Origin: Actinacidiphila glaucinigra
GTDB taxonomy: Bacteria > Actinomycetota > Actinomycetes > Streptomycetales > Streptomycetaceae
NCBI RefSeq assembly: GCF_900188405.1
Contig: NZ_FZOF01000023.1
Span: 62,001 to 126,000, forward strand
Reading direction: 5' to 3'
Length of the DNA: 64,000 nt
The notes below the pieces were generated by a model that saw only the letters and a list, made by a program, of their open reading frames with translations, was not told the origin of the DNA and ran no database searches. Positions 43,708 to 49,390 of this stretch are shown in pieces. Position numbers and translations under genes: made by a program. Every line of letters begins with the position of its first letter. The first letter of the stretch is position 1.

Positions 43708-45495
43708 TCAGGCGTCCATCCCGGCGAGCACCAGGACGAGCCGGGTGTCCCCCTCGGCCGTCAGCCGGACGGGGACACCCCAGTCCTGCTGGTGCACATG
43801 GCAGGCCGGGAACTCGTTGTCCGGGTCGTCGTCGCACGACGCGGCCATCGCCGACACATGGAGCACCCCCTCGCCGACGTCCCCGTTCAGGACGACGTCG
43901 CGGAAGAGGTCCGTGCCCTTGCCGGCCCCCTCCAGCAGCAGCTCCGGAGGCGTCGCGCCGACCAGCAGCCGCGTCGACGGGCCGTAGCGCTCGTCGAGCT
44001 TCTGGCCGGCCGGGGCGGAGAACACCACGTCCAGCCGCAGCGGCCCCGGCGCCACGTCGGTCGCGGGCCGCTGCGTGCGGTGCGCCGCGCCCTCGACCCG
44101 CACCGCGTCCTCCGGCAGGCGCAGCCGCGTCAGCCGGTGCCGGGCGGACTCCACCACCACGATCTCCCCGCCGTCCAGCACCGCGCCCGACGGCTCCCGC
44201 AGGTCCGTGGCGAGCGTGCCGACCTCACCGGTCGCCGGGTCGAAGCGGCGCAGCGCGTGGTTGTACGTGTCGCTGACCGCGACCGACCCGTCCGGCAGGG
44301 CCGTCACCCCCAGCGGATGCTGCAGCAGCGCCTGCTCCGCGGCCCCGTCACGGTGACCGAAGTCGAACAGCCCCGTGCCGACGGCGGTGCGCACCACGTA
44401 CCCCGCGCCGTCCCCGGCCCGCTCCACCCAGCGCAGCGCGCTGGTCTCGGAGTCCGCGACCCACAGCCGCTCCCCGGCGGCCGCCAGACCCGACGGTTGC
44501 GCGAACCACGCCTGATCCGCCGGCCCGTCGACCAGCCCCTCGTTGGTGGTTCCGGCCACCACGGCGACCGTCCCGTCCGCCGGGTCGTACGCCCACAGCT
44601 GGTGGACGCCCGCCATGGCGATCCACACCCTGCCGTCCCACCACGCCACGTCCCATGGCGACGACAGGTCGGTCCCGAGCGCCGGGCCCGAGGTCGCCGA
44701 CCCCTGCCACCACTGCTTCCCGGTGCCGGCCACCGTCTCAAGAGCCCCGCTCGCCGGGTCGAACGTCCGCAGCCGGTGGCCCACGGTGTCCGCGACGACC
44801 ACGGTGCCGTCCGGCAGCAGCGCGAGCCCCTGCGGCTCGTTGAAGTCCCCCGGGCCGCCGATCCGCCGTACGACGGTCTCCCCGTCCGGCTCCATCTCCA
44901 CCAGCTGGTGCCGGGTCGAGTCCGACACCAGCAGGTTCCCCGACGGCAGCCGCAGCGCCTTCCCCGGGAACCGCAGGTCCGTCGCCACCGGCTCCGGCGC
45001 CACGTACGGCCCGTCCCCGCGGCGCAGCGTCCCCTTCGCCGCGTGCTCGGCCTCCAGCTCGGTGACCAGCACCTCCAGCGCGTGCGCGTGCCCCTCCCCG
45101 GAGTGCTGGGCGACGACGTACCCCTCCGGGTCGATCACGGTCAGCGTGGGCCACGCCCGCACGGCGTACTGCTTCCACGTCGTGAGCTCCGGATCGTCCA
45201 GCACCGGGTGGTGCACCCCGTACCGCTCCACGGCGTCGACGACGGACTCGTGCTCCGCCTCGTGCACGAACTTCGGCGAGTGCACGCCGACGATCACCAC
45301 GGTGTCGCGGTGCTTCTCCTCCAGCTCACGCAGCTCGTCCAGGACGTGCAGGCAGTTGATGCAGCAGAAGGTCCAAAAATCTACCACCACTAGACGACCT
45401 CGGAGGTCCGCCAAGGTGAGGTTCTTCCCGCCGGTGTTGATCCAGCCGCCCTTGCCGACCAGCTCAGGGGCCCGGACGCGTACGCGCTTCGTCAT
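43708..45495 (-). CDS. Thioredoxin-like / NHL beta-propeller protein, 5' end at an integration junction
   Basis: 595 residues. Residues about 20-150 are a thioredoxin-like domain with the redox motif in DFWTFCCINCLHVL (CINC). About 160-480 hold NHL/six-bladed beta-propeller repeats (NEPQGLALLPDGTVVVADTVGHRLR and similar). A C-terminal beta-rich domain follows. No signal peptide is seen. The first 40 codons are related to a second, displaced 5' fragment at 49110-49235 beyond the serine-recombinase element, and use more A/T-ending codons (CTAGTGGTGGTAGATTTTTGG) than the rest of the gene. Confidence 0.88.
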   Translation of the reverse strand: MTKRVRVRAPELVGKGGWINTGGKNLTLADLRGRLVVVDFWTFCCINCLHVLDELRELEEKHRDTVVIVGVHSPKFVHEAEHESVVDAVERYGVHHPVLDDPELTTWKQYAVRAWPTLTVIDPEGYVVAQHSGEGHAHALEVLVTELEAEHAAKGTLRRGDGPYVAPEPVATDLRFPGKALRLPSGNLLVSDSTRHQLVEMEPDGETVVRRIGGPGDFNEPQGLALLPDGTVVVADTVGHRLRTFDPASGALETVAGTGKQWWQGSATSGPALGTDLSSPWDVAWWDGRVWIAMAGVHQLWAYDPADGTVAVVAGTTNEGLVDGPADQAWFAQPSGLAAAGERLWVADSETSALRWVERAGDGAGYVVRTAVGTGLFDFGHRDGAAEQALLQHPLGVTALPDGSVAVSDTYNHALRRFDPATGEVGTLATDLREPSGAVLDGGEIVVVESARHRLTRLRLPEDAVRVEGAAHRTQRPATDVAPGPLRLDVVFSAPAGQKLDERYGPSTRLLVGATPPELLLEGAGKGTDLFRDVVLNGDVGEGVLHVSAMAASCDDDPDNEFPACHVHQQDWGVPVRLTAEGDTRLVLVLAGMDA

Positions 45496-45529
45496 TCGTC
45501 CAGCATCGCCGACCGCCACGTGAACGTGA

Positions 45530-45557
45530 AACGCCCCCACCTGAGGGCGGGGGCGTT
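45530..45557 (-). terminator. Hairpin at the left end of the element
   Basis: AACGCCCCC (45530-45538) pairs with GGGGGCGTT (45549-45557), and outer GAACG/CGTTC bases extend the stem with a bulge. It follows the small gene at 45576-45806 on the minus strand. Confidence 0.55.
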
Positions 45558-45575
45558 CGCGTTCAAGTGGGCCCG

Positions 45576-45806
45576 TCAGGCGTCGTCGCCCGCCACGATC
45601 ACGGCGCACCCACCGCACCAGTCCTGCGGGCGCCGGCGAGCGGTCCACGCGTCGCGGTGGGTCGGGTGGAAGTTGTGCTCACGTGGCACCGGTGGCGACC
45701 AGCTCCCGTACACGCCCTGCTTGTCGCAAACGGTCCAACCGGACGCCGGGACGACGTGCACAGCGGCGCCCTTGCCCATCGTTCGGTGCTGGCGCTTCGT
45801 GTTCAT
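45576..45806 (-). CDS. Small protein of the integrated element, unknown function
   Basis: 76 residues from the ATG at 45806, which has a GGAGGGGA site. The sequence is rich in aromatic, His and Cys residues (VHVVPASGWTVCDKQGVYGSW to WCGGCAVIV). The CGGC near the C-terminus plus the earlier Cys and His could bind metal, but no family was recognised. Phage-like in size and position. Confidence 0.5.
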   Translation of the reverse strand: MNTKRQHRTMGKGAAVHVVPASGWTVCDKQGVYGSWSPPVPREHNFHPTHRDAWTARRRPQDWCGGCAVIVAGDDA

Positions 45807-45884
45807 CGGTTCCCCTCCGCAGTCCACCGGCTCCGCTCTGTCGTGGTGCCGGGGTCGGTGATCAGACGCTGCTCCGAGCGATCT

Positions 45885-46113
45885 CCCGACGTCCCTCCGA
45901 CCAAGCAAATCGCGGCCTATGTCGCCGCACTCTTGGAACAATGGCCCGATCTCACCGAGGATGAAGGCGACATATCGCCGTGGTCAACCGGTCCGCTTCC
46001 CGATGCGCTGGAGCATGGCGGAGGAGGCGTCCGCCCACGCGGCCGAGGTGGCTTCGTCGATGGGCATCAACTGTCACGACCCGCAGGCACGGTGCATCCG
46101 ACCCTGGTGATCG
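45885..46113 (+). pseudogene. Frameshifted, truncated remnant of a conserved Streptomyces hypothetical gene
   Basis: One frame reads IAAYVAALLEQWPDLTEDEGDISPWSTGPL (to about 45990). The next frame continues with MRWSMAEEASAHAAEVASSMGINCHDPQARCIRP and stops at 46110. Together they match a common Streptomyces family whose members run PWxxGPL-(xGEASGPxxYF)-MxxSxxEEASAxAAxLAxxHGLVCxDPQ. About ten codons between GPL and MRW are missing and the frame is lost. The N-terminal third of the family is also absent. Confidence 0.6.
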
Positions 46114-46495
46114 CGCGGGATGCGCGGGCGAGCCGGCTGCGGGTCGGCCGGTACGGGTGCGGGCACTGCTGGCCGCTGAACGGGCGCACGGATCGAGGCC
46201 GGTGTCGTCCCGCCGGTACATCCGCCGTTGACGCGTCCTCGGGGCCGCTGTGGGTCGTGAGCGCGTGGACCCGCCACAGGACCAACGGGGCGATCGCCGA
46301 CACGGCCACGACCACCGGCACGGACACCGGAAGCAGCCCAGATGCGATCACATGCGCGACCGTATTCACGGCGATGAGCGCAACGGCGACAGCGAATACA
46401 TCGCGCTCGCCGGGCGAATGCGCGGAGGGCGTAGAGGTCCAGGGCCCGCCCGGTGGGTCGGCGGTGTCCCCTTGGCTGCCTTCTAGGCTGGCGCC
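46114..46495. other. No confident gene inside the element
   Basis: 382 bp. On the minus strand one frame encodes a strongly hydrophobic stretch (FAVAVALIAVNTVAHVIASGLLPVSVPVV, about 46320-46400). It lacks a credible start codon or ribosome binding site, so it was not called as a gene. TAGGCT at 46484-46489 is a probable -10 for the gene at 46496. Confidence 0.4.
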
Positions 46496-47014
46496 ATGGA
46501 CAACGGGCTCGTTCACGAGGGAACCGCCTTCATCAACTTTCGACACTACGTGCCGGCTCCGAAGGAGCACGGGTTTCGGTGGGTCGACATCAAGCAGCTC
46601 CGCTTCTCTGCGAAGTCCCTGGCCGATAGAGAGCTGCTTGCCGCACTGATTGGGCATGAGCAGTTCCGGGACGACTATGCAGGTGGTGGAGTACTGCCGG
46701 ATGGGCCCCGGCACGGTCCGTATTGGTTGCGGTTGATCACTCCCGACCTCTACGAGCCCGTGAGCCAGGAGAAGGCCGTACAGATCCTGTGGGAGTGGGT
46801 GGAGCCGCTCCGGGACTCGCCCACCAAGTTGGAGGCAGATCTGCAGCGGGAGGTGTTCGACCGCCTGACTGCAGCCGATGGCATCTACTACCTCAGCGAG
46901 CTCGGTGATGAGGCGATTCACGACTGGGGACGTGTGCACGAGTACTTCCACGAGTTCGTGCTCATCGACCGCTCGGCTGGGCAGATCACTCTCGTCGTCG
47001 CGGCCGACGACTGA
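46496..47014 (+). CDS. Unknown protein carried by the element
   Basis: 172 residues, acidic, without membrane segments. It contains several aromatic patches (FINFRHYVP, HGFRWVDIKQL, YWLRLITPDLYEP, VHEYFHEFVLID) and looks like a globular alpha/beta protein. No known motif was recognised. TAGGCT ends six bases before the ATG and there is no Shine-Dalgarno, so the mRNA may be leaderless. GC content is lower than in neighbouring host genes, fitting cargo of the mobile element. Confidence 0.65.
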   Translation: MDNGLVHEGTAFINFRHYVPAPKEHGFRWVDIKQLRFSAKSLADRELLAALIGHEQFRDDYAGGGVLPDGPRHGPYWLRLITPDLYEPVSQEKAVQILWEWVEPLRDSPTKLEADLQREVFDRLTAADGIYYLSELGDEAIHDWGRVHEYFHEFVLIDRSAGQITLVVAADD

Positions 47015-47119
47015 GCCAAGCACCCGGGCATCCGCTACGGCAGCGGCGACGAGGTGCTCACGCCGTGTGCGGGGGCAGTCAAGGCCAACCGCCCCAACGC
47101 GATCGGTTATGGACGCCAC

Positions 47120-47400
47120 ACCAGCGGGACGCGGGCGAGCCGGCTTGTCGTCGGCCTCGACCTCGCCGATCACCCATCGGTTCCGGGCCATGCCCGACGC
47201 CGTGAGCCCCAGCGACTCGCCGACCTGCTTCACCTGCGCCCACAGCATCGAGGACGACTGCGGTTGCTCGGCGCGAGCCAGGACGCGGACGTACGACGCG
47301 ACCTCCCACTCAAGCCGGGCCGCGTCCCACGCGACGGCCTGGGTTCCCACAGGTCGAGCCCACGGTCGGACAGGGTGATGAGCGGGAACTCGGGTCTACG
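47120..47400 (-). pseudogene. Remnant resembling a phage terminase small subunit
   Basis: From about 47335 leftward the minus strand reads AVAWDAARLEWEVASYVRVLA, then MLWAQVKQVGESLGLTASGMARNRWVIGEVE. This resembles the C-terminal part of terminase small subunits of Streptomyces phages. The upstream segment continues in a different frame (ITLSDRGLDLW at about 47370), and the downstream frame runs into unrelated sequence, so the gene is broken. It supports a phage origin for the element. Confidence 0.45.
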
Positions 47401-47554
47401 TCACTCTTCGCCATATCCGTGTCCGTTCCGCGCCGCCCGGCGGGCCGCCCCGTCCGGCGCATCCCCGCGTTCACTGCTGGGCGTGTAAACGACGCGGGCG
47501 GCGCCCCGGGGTCCATCCGCCCGAGACACCGCCCGTCCGCCGTCAGCGGTGGCG

Positions 47555-49081
47555 CTATTCGCTGCTCCCCGCCCACACGATCCGGACGCGGTCTTCAGCG
47601 ACGAACCGCGCACCGTGTCGGCCCTTGGTGACCTCGACGCGGTCGATGGCAAGCTTCAGCAGCTCGCGCCGCTCCAGCACCTCGGCGGCTTCCCACGCCT
47701 CCGCCAGCAACTCGCCGTCGAGGAGAGGGGAAATGTCGGCCTCCGGCGTCGGCAGCTTGGCGAGGTCGTACCGCAGCCCGTCGATGCGACCACGCAGCCG
47801 GTCAGCGAGCCGGCTGTACCGCTCGATCGCTTCGGCGCCAGTGAACTCGCCGCGAACGTAGCGCGCGTCTTCCAGGTCGCCCATGCGTGCTTCGGCGTCG
47901 GCAAGTTCGGCGGTTATCGCGTCTCGCTGCGCGAACAGTGCCGGGTCGGCCTTGTGTATCCATCGATCCGCGACGGCGTCCAGCAGCGGGTCTCCCAGCT
48001 CCAACATCGGCAGCCGAGCGAGGAACTGGAAGGTCACGTACTCGTCGACACGGATCGCCATCGCTGACGCACCGGGGCATGTGTTGCCTTGCAGCGCGCC
48101 GAGGCACCGGTACGAGTTCCCCGAGATAGCCATGGCCTTGCCACAGCCGTCGTGCGCGCAGCGAGCGATGGACGTCAGCAGAGCTGTACCGATCGGCTTC
48201 GGGTGTCGGCGACCGGCGTACTGGAACGTACGCGACTCCAGCTGAGCGATGATCTTCTCCCGTTCGGCGACCGTGATGATGCCTTCGCCGACCTCGACGA
48301 CGTCGCCGGTGTCGGGGTGCCGGTACGGGACGACCTTGGACGTGTAGCGGCCGGTCTCTTTGTTCTTGATCGTCTCCGGCATGAGCCCGGCGAACGCGGG
48401 CGATCGCAGCAGATGCATGACCGTAGCCGCGTTCCACTGGCCACCACGCGGGGACAAGATTTCGTGCTCGTTGAGCAGTCGGGCGATCTTCGCCATGGGC
48501 TTGCCGTCGAGGGCTTCGTCGGCGATGAGCCGGGCGTAGACGGCGTCCTCGGGGTCGTGGACAAGCTTCTTGGTGGCGGGTTCGATCAGGAGGCCGAACG
48601 GCGGCTGTCCGCCGACCCACTGCCCGCGTGCACGGAGGTACTGCTTGGCGTGACCGACGCGAGTGCCGAGATTCTTCGACTCCGTGTATGCGAGCTCGGA
48701 CAGCATCGCGATGACGAGCCGGGCGCTGTCATTAGAGGTGTCCATCCCATCCATGACGGACACGAGGCGGCCCTTGGCGGCGGTGATGGCTTCGAGGGCG
48801 TTGCCGACCTCAGCCATGCCTTTGCGCGAGAGTCGGTCGAGCTTCCAAACGATCAGCGTTCCGACGACGCCGGAGGTCACGGCGGCTAGGGCGGCTTCGA
48901 ACCCCCTGCGCTCGACCTTCTTGTAGCCGGACACGCCCCGGTCGATGTGGACCTTGCGGACTTCGAGGCCGTTCCGTACGGCCCAAGCTCGGCAGTCGGC
49001 CTCCTGGCGCTCGATGGCCGTCTTCCCGTCCCGGTCGAGCGAGAGCCGGAGGTAGAGGTCGGCCAACGTGTGATGGTGCAT
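47555..49081 (-). CDS. Large serine recombinase (phage-type integrase)
   Basis: 508 residues. The catalytic resolvase domain starts YLRLSLDRDGKTAIERQEADC with the nucleophilic Ser at about residue 14. A recombinase domain (about 160-270, PFGLLIEPATKKLVHDPEDAVYARLI) is followed by a zinc ribbon (CAHDGCGKAMA to CPGASA, about 315-350) and a coiled-coil-containing C-terminus. It catalyses attP x attB integration. It is intact and may be functional. TAGGAT lies six bases before the ATG with no Shine-Dalgarno (leaderless). Confidence 0.95.
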   Translation of the reverse strand: MHHHTLADLYLRLSLDRDGKTAIERQEADCRAWAVRNGLEVRKVHIDRGVSGYKKVERRGFEAALAAVTSGVVGTLIVWKLDRLSRKGMAEVGNALEAITAAKGRLVSVMDGMDTSNDSARLVIAMLSELAYTESKNLGTRVGHAKQYLRARGQWVGGQPPFGLLIEPATKKLVHDPEDAVYARLIADEALDGKPMAKIARLLNEHEILSPRGGQWNAATVMHLLRSPAFAGLMPETIKNKETGRYTSKVVPYRHPDTGDVVEVGEGIITVAEREKIIAQLESRTFQYAGRRHPKPIGTALLTSIARCAHDGCGKAMAISGNSYRCLGALQGNTCPGASAMAIRVDEYVTFQFLARLPMLELGDPLLDAVADRWIHKADPALFAQRDAITAELADAEARMGDLEDARYVRGEFTGAEAIERYSRLADRLRGRIDGLRYDLAKLPTPEADISPLLDGELLAEAWEAAEVLERRELLKLAIDRVEVTKGRHGARFVAEDRVRIVWAGSSE

Positions 49082-49099
49082 TCGGACATCCTAGGATCG

Positions 49100-49235
49100 T
49101 TACTCCCTTATGGACGCCCAGAAGTCGAGAATGACGCATGTGCCCCGCAGGTCGACAACGGTGAGGTCCTGACCGCCGGTGTTGATCCAGCCGCCGTTGC
49201 CGACGAGCTCGGGGGCGCGGACGCGGGCACGAACC
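49100..49235 (-). pseudogene. Displaced 5' fragment of a thioredoxin/NHL gene
   Basis: Codes for RVRAPELVGNGGWINTGGQDL, then a further segment ending LDFW, and stops shortly after. It aligns with residues about 6-41 of the protein at 43708-45495 but ends exactly before the CINC motif. There is no start codon in a normal context. It marks the right junction of the element. Confidence 0.75.
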
Positions 49236-49390
49236 ACGACGGCTGCCCGGACCTCGCGGCCGGTGTGCCCGGGGAGATATTCGGCACCGTCACGCGCGCG
49301 GGCGCCGTGCACGTCCTGCCCGGCGGCACGAAGGGCATCACCGCGGCCTCCGCCCGGTTGATCCCGCTGCGGGCCGCGTTCCCGCAGTAG
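49236..49390 (+). pseudogene. Fragment of an FG-GAP repeat protein gene
   Basis: The plus-strand frame reads NHDGCPDLAAGVPGE, then TVTRAGAVHVLPGGTKGITAAS, a typical FG-GAP/integrin-alpha repeat (DxNGDGxxDLAVGxPGE...GAVxVLxGxxxGLT), ending at TAG 49388-49390. No start or signal peptide is present. It abuts the displaced thioredoxin/NHL fragment on the opposite strand. Confidence 0.5.

Follow-up and report, generated by a model that had tools for sequence, protein, structure and literature searches.

ICE SXT is a large conjugative element with a tyrosine integrase, unlike the element described here. In the available portions of PMC8409611 and PMC4482086, rebuilding of the target gene upon integration is reported for tyrosine integrases, namely those of SXT, which inserts at prfC (as cited in PMC8409611), and of the dusA islands. 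Similar to our element, IMEVchUSA3 and the dusA islands have their insertion site within the 5' end of a conserved gene, but by the same accounts the islands use a tyrosine recombinase, have another target and other hosts, and are typically 30-60 kb long (PMC8409611, PMC4482086). Serine integrases enter protein genes as well, as do those of the streptococcal ICEs at rumA, mutT, hsdM and traG, and at rumA the 3' parts of the target and integrase genes are exchanged (PMC4701971). These ICEs differ in that all 29 insertions disrupt genes according to the authors, and the portion of PMC4701971 available contains no protein-preserving replacement of a 5' end. The phiJoe/SCO2603 elements of Streptomyces (PMC5311408) are likewise small, with a serine integrase, one target gene and variable cargo, some holding recombination genes only; their attB differs in lying 74 bp from the gene end, and the available text of that paper mentions no replacement 5' end. 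Finally, the phiK38-1 integrase (AB251919) also has its attP immediately ahead of its own gene and its attB within a host gene (SCO1148), but it is 29% identical to ours, and its annotated attP measures 40 bp with no coding mimic annotated. According to the literature surveyed, protein genes that serine integrases enter are disrupted, and no case of one rebuilding the 5' end of its target was found in the literature searched.

The window analysed here is a stretch of 64,000 nucleotides from Actinacidiphila glaucinigra (NZ_FZOF01000023.1, positions 62,001 to 126,000), whose relevant features are listed in Table 1. We consider it very likely that a large serine recombinase inserts at the Trp41 codon of a thioredoxin-like/NHL gene, through the dinucleotide TG, with a coding arm of attP replacing the 5' end of this target.

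Table 1. Features of the locus in window coordinates.
Feature	Position	Strand	Remarks
Thioredoxin-like/NHL target gene, putatively chimeric	43708..45495	-	Open 595-codon frame; thioredoxin-like and NHL domains
Gene body, probably host-derived, from third base of codon 41	43708..45373	-	About 95% identity with element-free relative G025
5' end, probably element-derived: start codon and codons 1-41	45374..45495	-	One, coding, half of predicted attP
Predicted crossover TG in Trp41 codon, body-side junction	45374..45375	-	Symmetry centre averaged over 18 loci; weak in window
Inverted repeat AACGCCCCC...GGGGGCGTT	45530..45557		Just 5' of new start codon; read by eye
Likely cargo frame, 172 aa	46496..47014	+	Without Pfam or PADLOC match
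Large serine recombinase, 508 aa	47555..49081	-	Resolvase PF00239 and Recombinase PF07508
Element-borne tail closing displaced frame (ASIRE-stop)	49100..49117	-	Part of other predicted attP half; 18 nt before recombinase start
Displaced, putative former 5' end of target gene, about codons 4-41	49118..49234	-	Start codon lost
Predicted crossover TG, recombinase-side junction	49119..49120	-	Where similarity of 5' ends stops; symmetry
C-terminal gene remnant, outside element	49235..49390	+	Complete counterpart in G025

By sequence the target protein is a relative of NHLRC2 and SOQ1, and its gene, initially annotated as complete, indeed forms one open frame. The second 5' end that the initial annotation had placed beyond the recombinase is present, but not from the first codon as supposed: its start codon and upstream DNA are gone, and it abuts the C-terminal remnant of another gene, which by its motifs, read by eye, looks like that of an FG-GAP repeat protein. 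The 23-nt identical block noted earlier is the longest common to both 5' ends and lies at an equal offset in each, and their protein similarity ends, as had been proposed, ahead of the CxxC (Cys45-Ile-Asn-Cys48), at Trp41-Thr42. Unusual A/T-rich codons had been ascribed to the 5' end of the intact copy; third-position GC is 0.94 over codons 1-31, 0.30 over codons 32-41 and 0.97 over codons 42-595, so that the A/T-rich stretch comprises only the ten codons adjoining the junction. Among 5' ends, the one nearest to that of the intact copy belongs to the S. verrucosisporus element (0.85), and both fall in the same clade with a support of 0.80.

The recombinase domains (PF00239, residues 9-155; PF07508, residues 177-283) are of the serine type and not those of a tyrosine integrase, and the protein resembles the phiC31 and TP901-1 integrases in sequence. 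As the similarity of the two 5' ends stops at the TG at 45375-45374 and at 49120-49119, the element would span about 3,745 bp. Its likely cargo frame of 172 aa is matched in 17 of 61 genomes (among them its own), no phage-type genes were seen in the two window frames scanned, and scanning the window for consensus promoters and terminators returned nothing above chance. Some related elements hold phage-type genes, namely a D5-type primase (L046), a terminase small subunit (L048) and an HK97-type capsid (L050); FtsK-type transfer and Rep genes, as in actinobacterial conjugative elements (AICEs), were absent from the cargo proteins scanned. An anti-phage CBASS pair is present in at least one element, and the site may therefore serve as a parking place for defence and satellite cargo.

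Recombinases of this clade were found in 28 of 394 family genomes, the window included, a patchy presence in which carrier counts are lower bounds because only three candidates were scored per genome. Target-gene sequence adjoins the recombinase in 27 of the 27 other carriers (recombinase 58-79% identical), and the intact target gene lies within the examined stretch in 24; in G081 about 15 kb of the contig separate the two, and the gene is split from the recombinase over two contigs in G150 and is reduced to a C-terminal remnant in G361. A displaced 5' end adjoins the recombinase in 19 of these 27 genomes (codons 25-41 only in L053) and was not detected in the other 8. The order is fixed, running from the displaced 5' end through 35-43 nt to the recombinase, the cargo and the intact gene, and this spacing between junction and recombinase start holds in 20 of 20 loci, the window among them. 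Eleven further genomes retain a second 5' end with no recombinase detected. A KC-type pattern occurs in at least 28 of the 394 genomes, a lower bound because the pattern missed the GTACTAG variant; 16 of these 28 have neither a clade recombinase nor a detected displaced copy, and three (G104, G355, G375) of the nine whose upstream DNA was read contain more than 800 bp of element-like DNA. The decayed remains, the fixed order, the junction and the swap in related loci all emerge from comparison of their sequences.

Reconstructed attP and attB sites are, averaged over 18 loci, imperfect inverted repeats about a common dinucleotide, the TG of Trp41, with mean symmetries of 10.8/20 for attP and 8.2/20 for attB that are the highest of 35 centres; the window itself scores 6/20 for each. 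In four loci the two copies do not agree at the last base of codon 41, which places the exchange before that base, and the TG is absent from the displaced copy in 2 of the 18 loci (L042 and L063).

The initial annotation suggested that the element had replaced the start of its target gene, and comparison with element-free genomes supports this: in all five chosen pairs with close element-free relatives, the displaced 5' sequence is the closer one. The cleanest pair joins S. verrucosisporus (G383), which bears the window's element type, with element-free G286: the bodies share 0.97 identity, and in the 5' part the displaced copy reaches 0.94 and the present intact end 0.70, or 0.941 and 0.723 when scored with the other chosen pairs. 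Corresponding displaced and intact identities are 0.970 and 0.752 for G144/G140 (where G140 has 1.2 kb of upstream DNA in common with scar loci), 0.891 and 0.792 for G083/G103, 0.921 and 0.861 for G196/G172, and 0.762 and 0.723 for the window and G025. Because the displaced 5' end and the body match the element-free relative and the present end does not, integration appears to swap the first 41 codons together with the upstream region. The carrier loci further indicate that the target receives from the element both its start codon and an in-frame N-terminus. Among the 29 same-genus loci listed (45 nt before the junction), none combined absence of the element with the present 5' end, a result that would instead point to an older duplication.

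Both ends are present at 29 loci. Measured against the closest host-type relative, the displaced copy is the nearer one in 20 and the intact copy in 7, with 2 ties; G235, which served as the host-type reference at three of the loci, itself bears 857 bp of element-like upstream DNA. For loci with a recombinase the displaced copy is closer in 14 of 18. A first comparison with closest relatives was mixed because 10 of 74 relatives carry element-type 5' ends. With these kept, the displaced copy is closer in 12 of the same 29 loci and the intact copy in 14, with 3 ties; 9 of the 14 relatives favouring the intact copy bear element-type 5' ends, and relatives were drawn from the top matches to the window's N-terminus, a choice that favours such ends. 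Matrix correlations over all carriers failed to separate host from element signals and are partly contrary to a swap: among 17 carriers the intact 5' end correlates with the recombinase at r=0.20 (body held constant) and with the body at r=0.59 (recombinase held constant), and the displaced 5' end with the body at r=-0.22. Overall, the proposed swap is well supported for the system and weakly by the window alone, whose displaced copy is too diverged to establish it unaided.

How might this proceed? We propose that a single crossover by the recombinase at the TG inside the Trp41 codon would fuse the host body to a 5' end brought in by the element, since one arm of attP is predicted to be coding, with a start codon followed by 40 codons that match the host protein. 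The original 5' end of the host gene would come to lie directly before the recombinase. In most loci of the host groups g14 and g3 this arm also bears a SigR-like promoter motif (GGAAT-N18-19-GTT, the consensus given in the available part of PMC9205884). The motif lies upstream of intact copies in 16/19 g14 and 4/5 g3 loci, of element-free loci in 17/21 and 4/4, and of displaced copies in 11/18 and 3/5 (scar loci counted), against a background of 23/3420; none precedes the window's new start, and g9 has 0/12. The recombinase is probably active and the chimeric gene probably expressed, presumably from the swapped promoter, and as the target stays readable, insertion should cost the host little. 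Recombinase and cargo may later decay or be deleted, with the new 5' end persisting because the gene would now depend on the element-borne start, and further elements may replace it again.

An alternative that we think doubtful is that the element-borne 5' end mainly drives the recombinase, providing its own promoter and leader in the circle, with gene rebuilding as a by-product. The constant 35-43 nt to the recombinase start, the stop that, in all 14 translated copies, closes the displaced frame within 8 codons of the junction, and the motif before displaced copies would all suit such a leader. On the other hand, a mere leader would not have to resemble the host protein across 41 codons, related elements at a DUF255 thioredoxin gene carry 250-270 matching codons, and the intact copies are complete frames with a pN/pS of 0.21. 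Displaced copies, at 0.24, show no clear relaxation or decay by this measure, a point against the proposed swap.

It is less probable still that the loci are dead, vertically inherited remnants and not mobile elements. Partial or broken recombinases in several loci (e.g. L057-L063), their absence from the eleven loci mentioned above, and the phage (1155) and plasmid (196) records matching the recombinase, all below 60% identity and thus without a clade member above that value, agree with this idea. The 43-aa N-terminus had no phage match and matched 195 plasmid records, 194 of them below 60%; one IMG/VR relative of the recombinase, 36% identical, had no flanking DNA duplication; and across the class (394 genomes, E<=1e-90) members of the clade turned up in three genomes, all of the same family. 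Against the idea of dead remnants, the window and many carriers have a full-length recombinase frame, presence is patchy, the element closest to the window's is in another genus group, and in seven g14 genomes the intact 5' ends (codons 11-30) share a mean identity of 0.99 where bodies share 0.893, recombinases 0.901 and displaced copies 0.852. The elements probably spread between species. Least credible, and in our judgement very improbable, is that gene duplication or gene conversion made the second 5' end and the recombinase arrived beside it later: almost identical copies in three of the 11 recombinase-less loci (L117, L119, L120) and the weak likeness of the window's displaced copy to its nearest element-free relative fit this, but it is disfavoured by the fixed order and spacing in 20 loci, the average symmetry of both reconstructed sites about one TG, the seat of all 27 clade members at one gene, and the close pairs, in which displaced copies match element-free relatives and the only 5' end of G286 is of the displaced type.

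Returning to integration by a coding attP arm, what appears new here is a serine integrase carrying out the 5'-end gene restoration known for tyrosine integrases. Elements with distantly related recombinases behave likewise at two other genes, one PLP-enzyme-like (about 45-55 codons) and the other the DUF255 gene. The loci comprise about twenty natural attP/attB pairs mapping to one dinucleotide, and may offer integration tools that spare the host a gene loss. A lineage that rebuilds its targets would explain settlement in conserved genes, and we lean, with some reserve, towards the view that an actinobacterial serine-integrase lineage has made its attP a coding graft (promoter plus N-terminal module), each integration trading the promoters of host gene and integrase and replacing part of a conserved protein, at the thioredoxin/NHL, PLP-enzyme-like and DUF255 genes alike, so that one element after another would alter how these host genes begin and how they are regulated. 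Site-specific recombination that rewrites core-gene promoters and N-termini in this way can mislead gene trees and annotation.

The duplicated 5' end at the thioredoxin/NHL gene is real. Both the whole gene, whose sequence relatives include human NHLRC2 and plant SOQ1, and a partial second 5' end past the recombinase are present in the window, as the initial annotation had proposed, and the two have in common a 23-nt identical block with related sequence on either side, their likeness stopping at the Trp41 codon. The A/T-rich codons ascribed to the 5' end of the intact copy do exist, but are limited to those beside the junction (third-position GC of 0.30 in codons 32-41 versus 0.97 in the body). 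The window's cargo is likely a single 172-aa frame with no Pfam or PADLOC match. An inverted repeat lies at 45530-45557, within the new upstream region (45496-45560). At the right flank, 49222-49390 holds what is left of the C-terminal part of another gene, which by eye resembles FG-GAP proteins. The element-free relative G025 has this gene in full, divergent from the target gene and about 1.5 kb from it; a deletion at this flank is likely.

Features of the window locus and cargo genes of related loci
Feature	Location	Strand
Intact thioredoxin/NHL gene	43708-45495	-
Large serine recombinase, 508 aa	47555-49081	-
Second version of the target gene's 5' end	about 49118-49234	-
D5-type primase	L046	
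Terminase small subunit	L048	
HK97-type capsid	L050	
HNH endonuclease	L045	
CBASS cyclase and 2TM effector pair	L052:10471-11879	

At E<=1e-60 the recombinase was matched in at least 39 of 394 genomes of the family, presumably Streptomycetaceae (three candidates scored per genome), 28 of which, the window's included, form one clade with 58-79% identity to the window recombinase, while the remaining 11 have matches of just 34-38%. A search across the class recovered clade members from 3 of 394 genomes, every one in the same family, and phage and plasmid collections gave no recombinase match above 60% identity. For the other 27 members of the clade, up to about 20 kb of surrounding DNA was fetched, some stretches being shortened by contig ends (to 3 kb in G150). 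Target-gene sequence adjoins the recombinase in all 27, and the gene is intact inside the fetched stretch in 24. G081 and G150 have the displaced copy in the stretch, with the intact gene about 15 kb off on the same contig in the former and the target gene on a different contig in the latter; G361 (locus L047) has only a C-terminal remnant (residues 542-595) closely after the recombinase, and here the target gene seems to have been lost. In 20 of the 28 loci a displaced 5' end precedes the recombinase and shares its strand, and in all 20 the start of the recombinase, projected back to residue 1, falls 35-43 nt past the junction; cargo and then the intact gene follow the recombinase. No displaced copy was detected in the other eight loci (L047, L056-L062), about seven codons of it remaining in L062. 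Junction and intact gene are separated by about 0.7 to 9.6 kb in recombinase-bearing loci, and by more in G081.

The proposal that the element replaces the start of its target on integration was examined against element-free relatives. In five chosen pairs, the first 101 nt of the displaced and intact copies were each compared with a close element-free relative, and the displaced copy was the closer in all five: 0.941 and 0.723 for G383/G286, 0.970 and 0.752 for G144/G140, 0.891 and 0.792 for G083/G103, 0.921 and 0.861 for G196/G172, and 0.762 and 0.723 for the window and G025. The cleanest is G383/G286, whose element is of the window's type, because no recombinase was detected at the G144, G083 and G196 loci, and 1.2 kb of DNA upstream in G140 is shared with loci of that kind. 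Over all 29 loci with both ends, when the closest-body relative was taken regardless of the kind of 5' end it carries, the displaced copy was closer in 12 and the intact copy in 14, with three ties; nine of those 14 relatives themselves bear element-type 5' ends. Dropping ten of 74 relatives with such ends, by a criterion (the 30 nt beside the junction) that is not independent of the swap claim, changed these counts to 20, 7 and 2. Restricted to the 18 recombinase-bearing loci, the filtered comparison favored the displaced copy in 14 and the intact copy in four; of these four, three (L043, L044, L050) are decided by a margin of one hundredth and one (L053) has a broken displaced copy. The window's target-gene body is about 95% identical to that of G025, with identity dropping from 1.00 over the 30 nt that follow the Trp41 codon to 0.60 over the 30 nt leading up to it. 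Start replacement has support across the system and is plausible in the window itself.

Swapping the two halves at codon 41 gave reconstructed attP and attB sites for 18 loci. Among 35 centres tested, mean symmetry was maximal at the TG of Trp41 for both sites: attP scored 10.8 of 20, against an average over the centres of 5.2 (sd 1.6), and attB 8.2 of 20, against 4.8 (sd 1.3); the window's own sites have weak symmetry (6 of 20 each), and the displaced copy is without TG in L042 and L063. Since the copies differ at the third base of codon 41 in L037-L040, exchange would occur before this base.

On the sequence evidence, the new 5' ends belong with the element. For seven carriers of genus group g14 (loci L043-L045, L048 and L050-L052) the intact 5' ends (codons 11-30) have a mean identity of 0.99, while the body averages 0.893, the recombinase gene 0.901 and the displaced copies 0.852; for all nine g14 carriers compared the values are 0.929, 0.888, 0.883 and 0.834, respectively. 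The nearest match to the window's intact 5' end (0.85; same clade, support 0.80) is in Streptomyces verrucosisporus, of another genus group, whose recombinase is also nearest to the window's (79% over residues 1-174). Matrix correlations, computed over 17 carriers that have a long recombinase as well as both ends, are confounded and partly contrary.

Among 31 other genomes with at least two N-terminal matches and no clade recombinase, 11 have an additional 5' end that precedes the intact gene by 0.6-3.8 kb, with no recombinase match at these loci; G148 has one more, faint. Three of the eleven (L117, L119, L120) are near-identical copies (0.99-1.00) and may stem from another sort of event or element. 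A Fic domain frame is present in L116, and L119 and L126 have frames of similar look by eye. KC ends, one kind of element-type 5' end, are present in 28 of 394 genomes, and 16 of those show neither a recombinase nor a displaced copy. The displaced copy of L054 is itself of element type and that of the window clusters with element-type ends (support 0.77), which would be a sign, not proof, of repeated replacement. Part of the cargo was scanned, and the genes of L046, L048 and L050, each in a single locus, suggest that such islands may be phage-satellite-like.

The phenomenon is broader than first described. We inspected all 13 sites where the recombinase match is 34-38% identical, by a procedure that recovers the duplicated end from every one of the 14 thioredoxin/NHL carriers tried, and in six of them the recombinase is flanked by a duplicate of a gene's 5' end. 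In L064 and L065 it belongs to a gene that we take, from its motifs, to be PLP-enzyme-like, and that had no Pfam match in its first 160 aa; in L068, L197, L198 and, weakly, L196 it belongs to a DUF255 thioredoxin gene, the displaced part extending to residue 250-270 of about 680. The element-free comparison covers the thioredoxin/NHL gene. The other seven places (L066, L067, L069, L195, L199-L201) gave no duplicated 5' end, a match at L199 being discounted for its inverted orientation.

The SXT integrase is a tyrosine recombinase. So are the dusA integrases (PMC8409611, PMC4482086), unlike the serine recombinase at the thioredoxin/NHL gene. Streptococcal serine-integrase ICEs are said to disrupt their targets in 29 of 29 cases (PMC4701971). 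A large serine recombinase survey likewise speaks of target genes as disrupted, and a term search of it returned no words beginning restor- and no "thioredoxin" (PMC10083194). We found no serine-integrase element that rebuilds its target's 5' end in the literature searched, which was mostly outside subscription journals. Judging by sequence, serine integrases here rebuild the 5' end of the gene they enter, attP having the N-terminus of the host gene built into it; rebuilding as such is already known for tyrosine integrases (SXT, dusA islands).

The reported SigR consensus is GGAAT-N18-19-GTT (PMC9205884). This SigR-like motif was sought in the 85 bp upstream region (carrier counts take in loci without recombinase), against a background of 23 in 3420 random windows. 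It precedes intact carrier copies in 16/19 (g14) and 4/5 (g3), displaced copies in 11/18 and 3/5, and the gene at element-free loci in 17/21 and 4/4, as well as in 20/29 for g1. On these counts the g14 and g3 elements appear to bring their hosts' promoter type. Counts in g9 were 0/12 (intact), 0/6 (displaced) and 1/20 (element-free), and the lone g13 carrier has the motif upstream of neither copy. From the layout we infer a promoter swap between circle and integrated state: the circular form would place the element's promoter and leader upstream of the recombinase, and integration would put the host's there. In the window, the new 5' flank (45496-45560) has no SigR-like motif versus 20 of 29 same-genus loci with one, and since it is missing where most of the genus has it, the regulation of the target gene may have changed.
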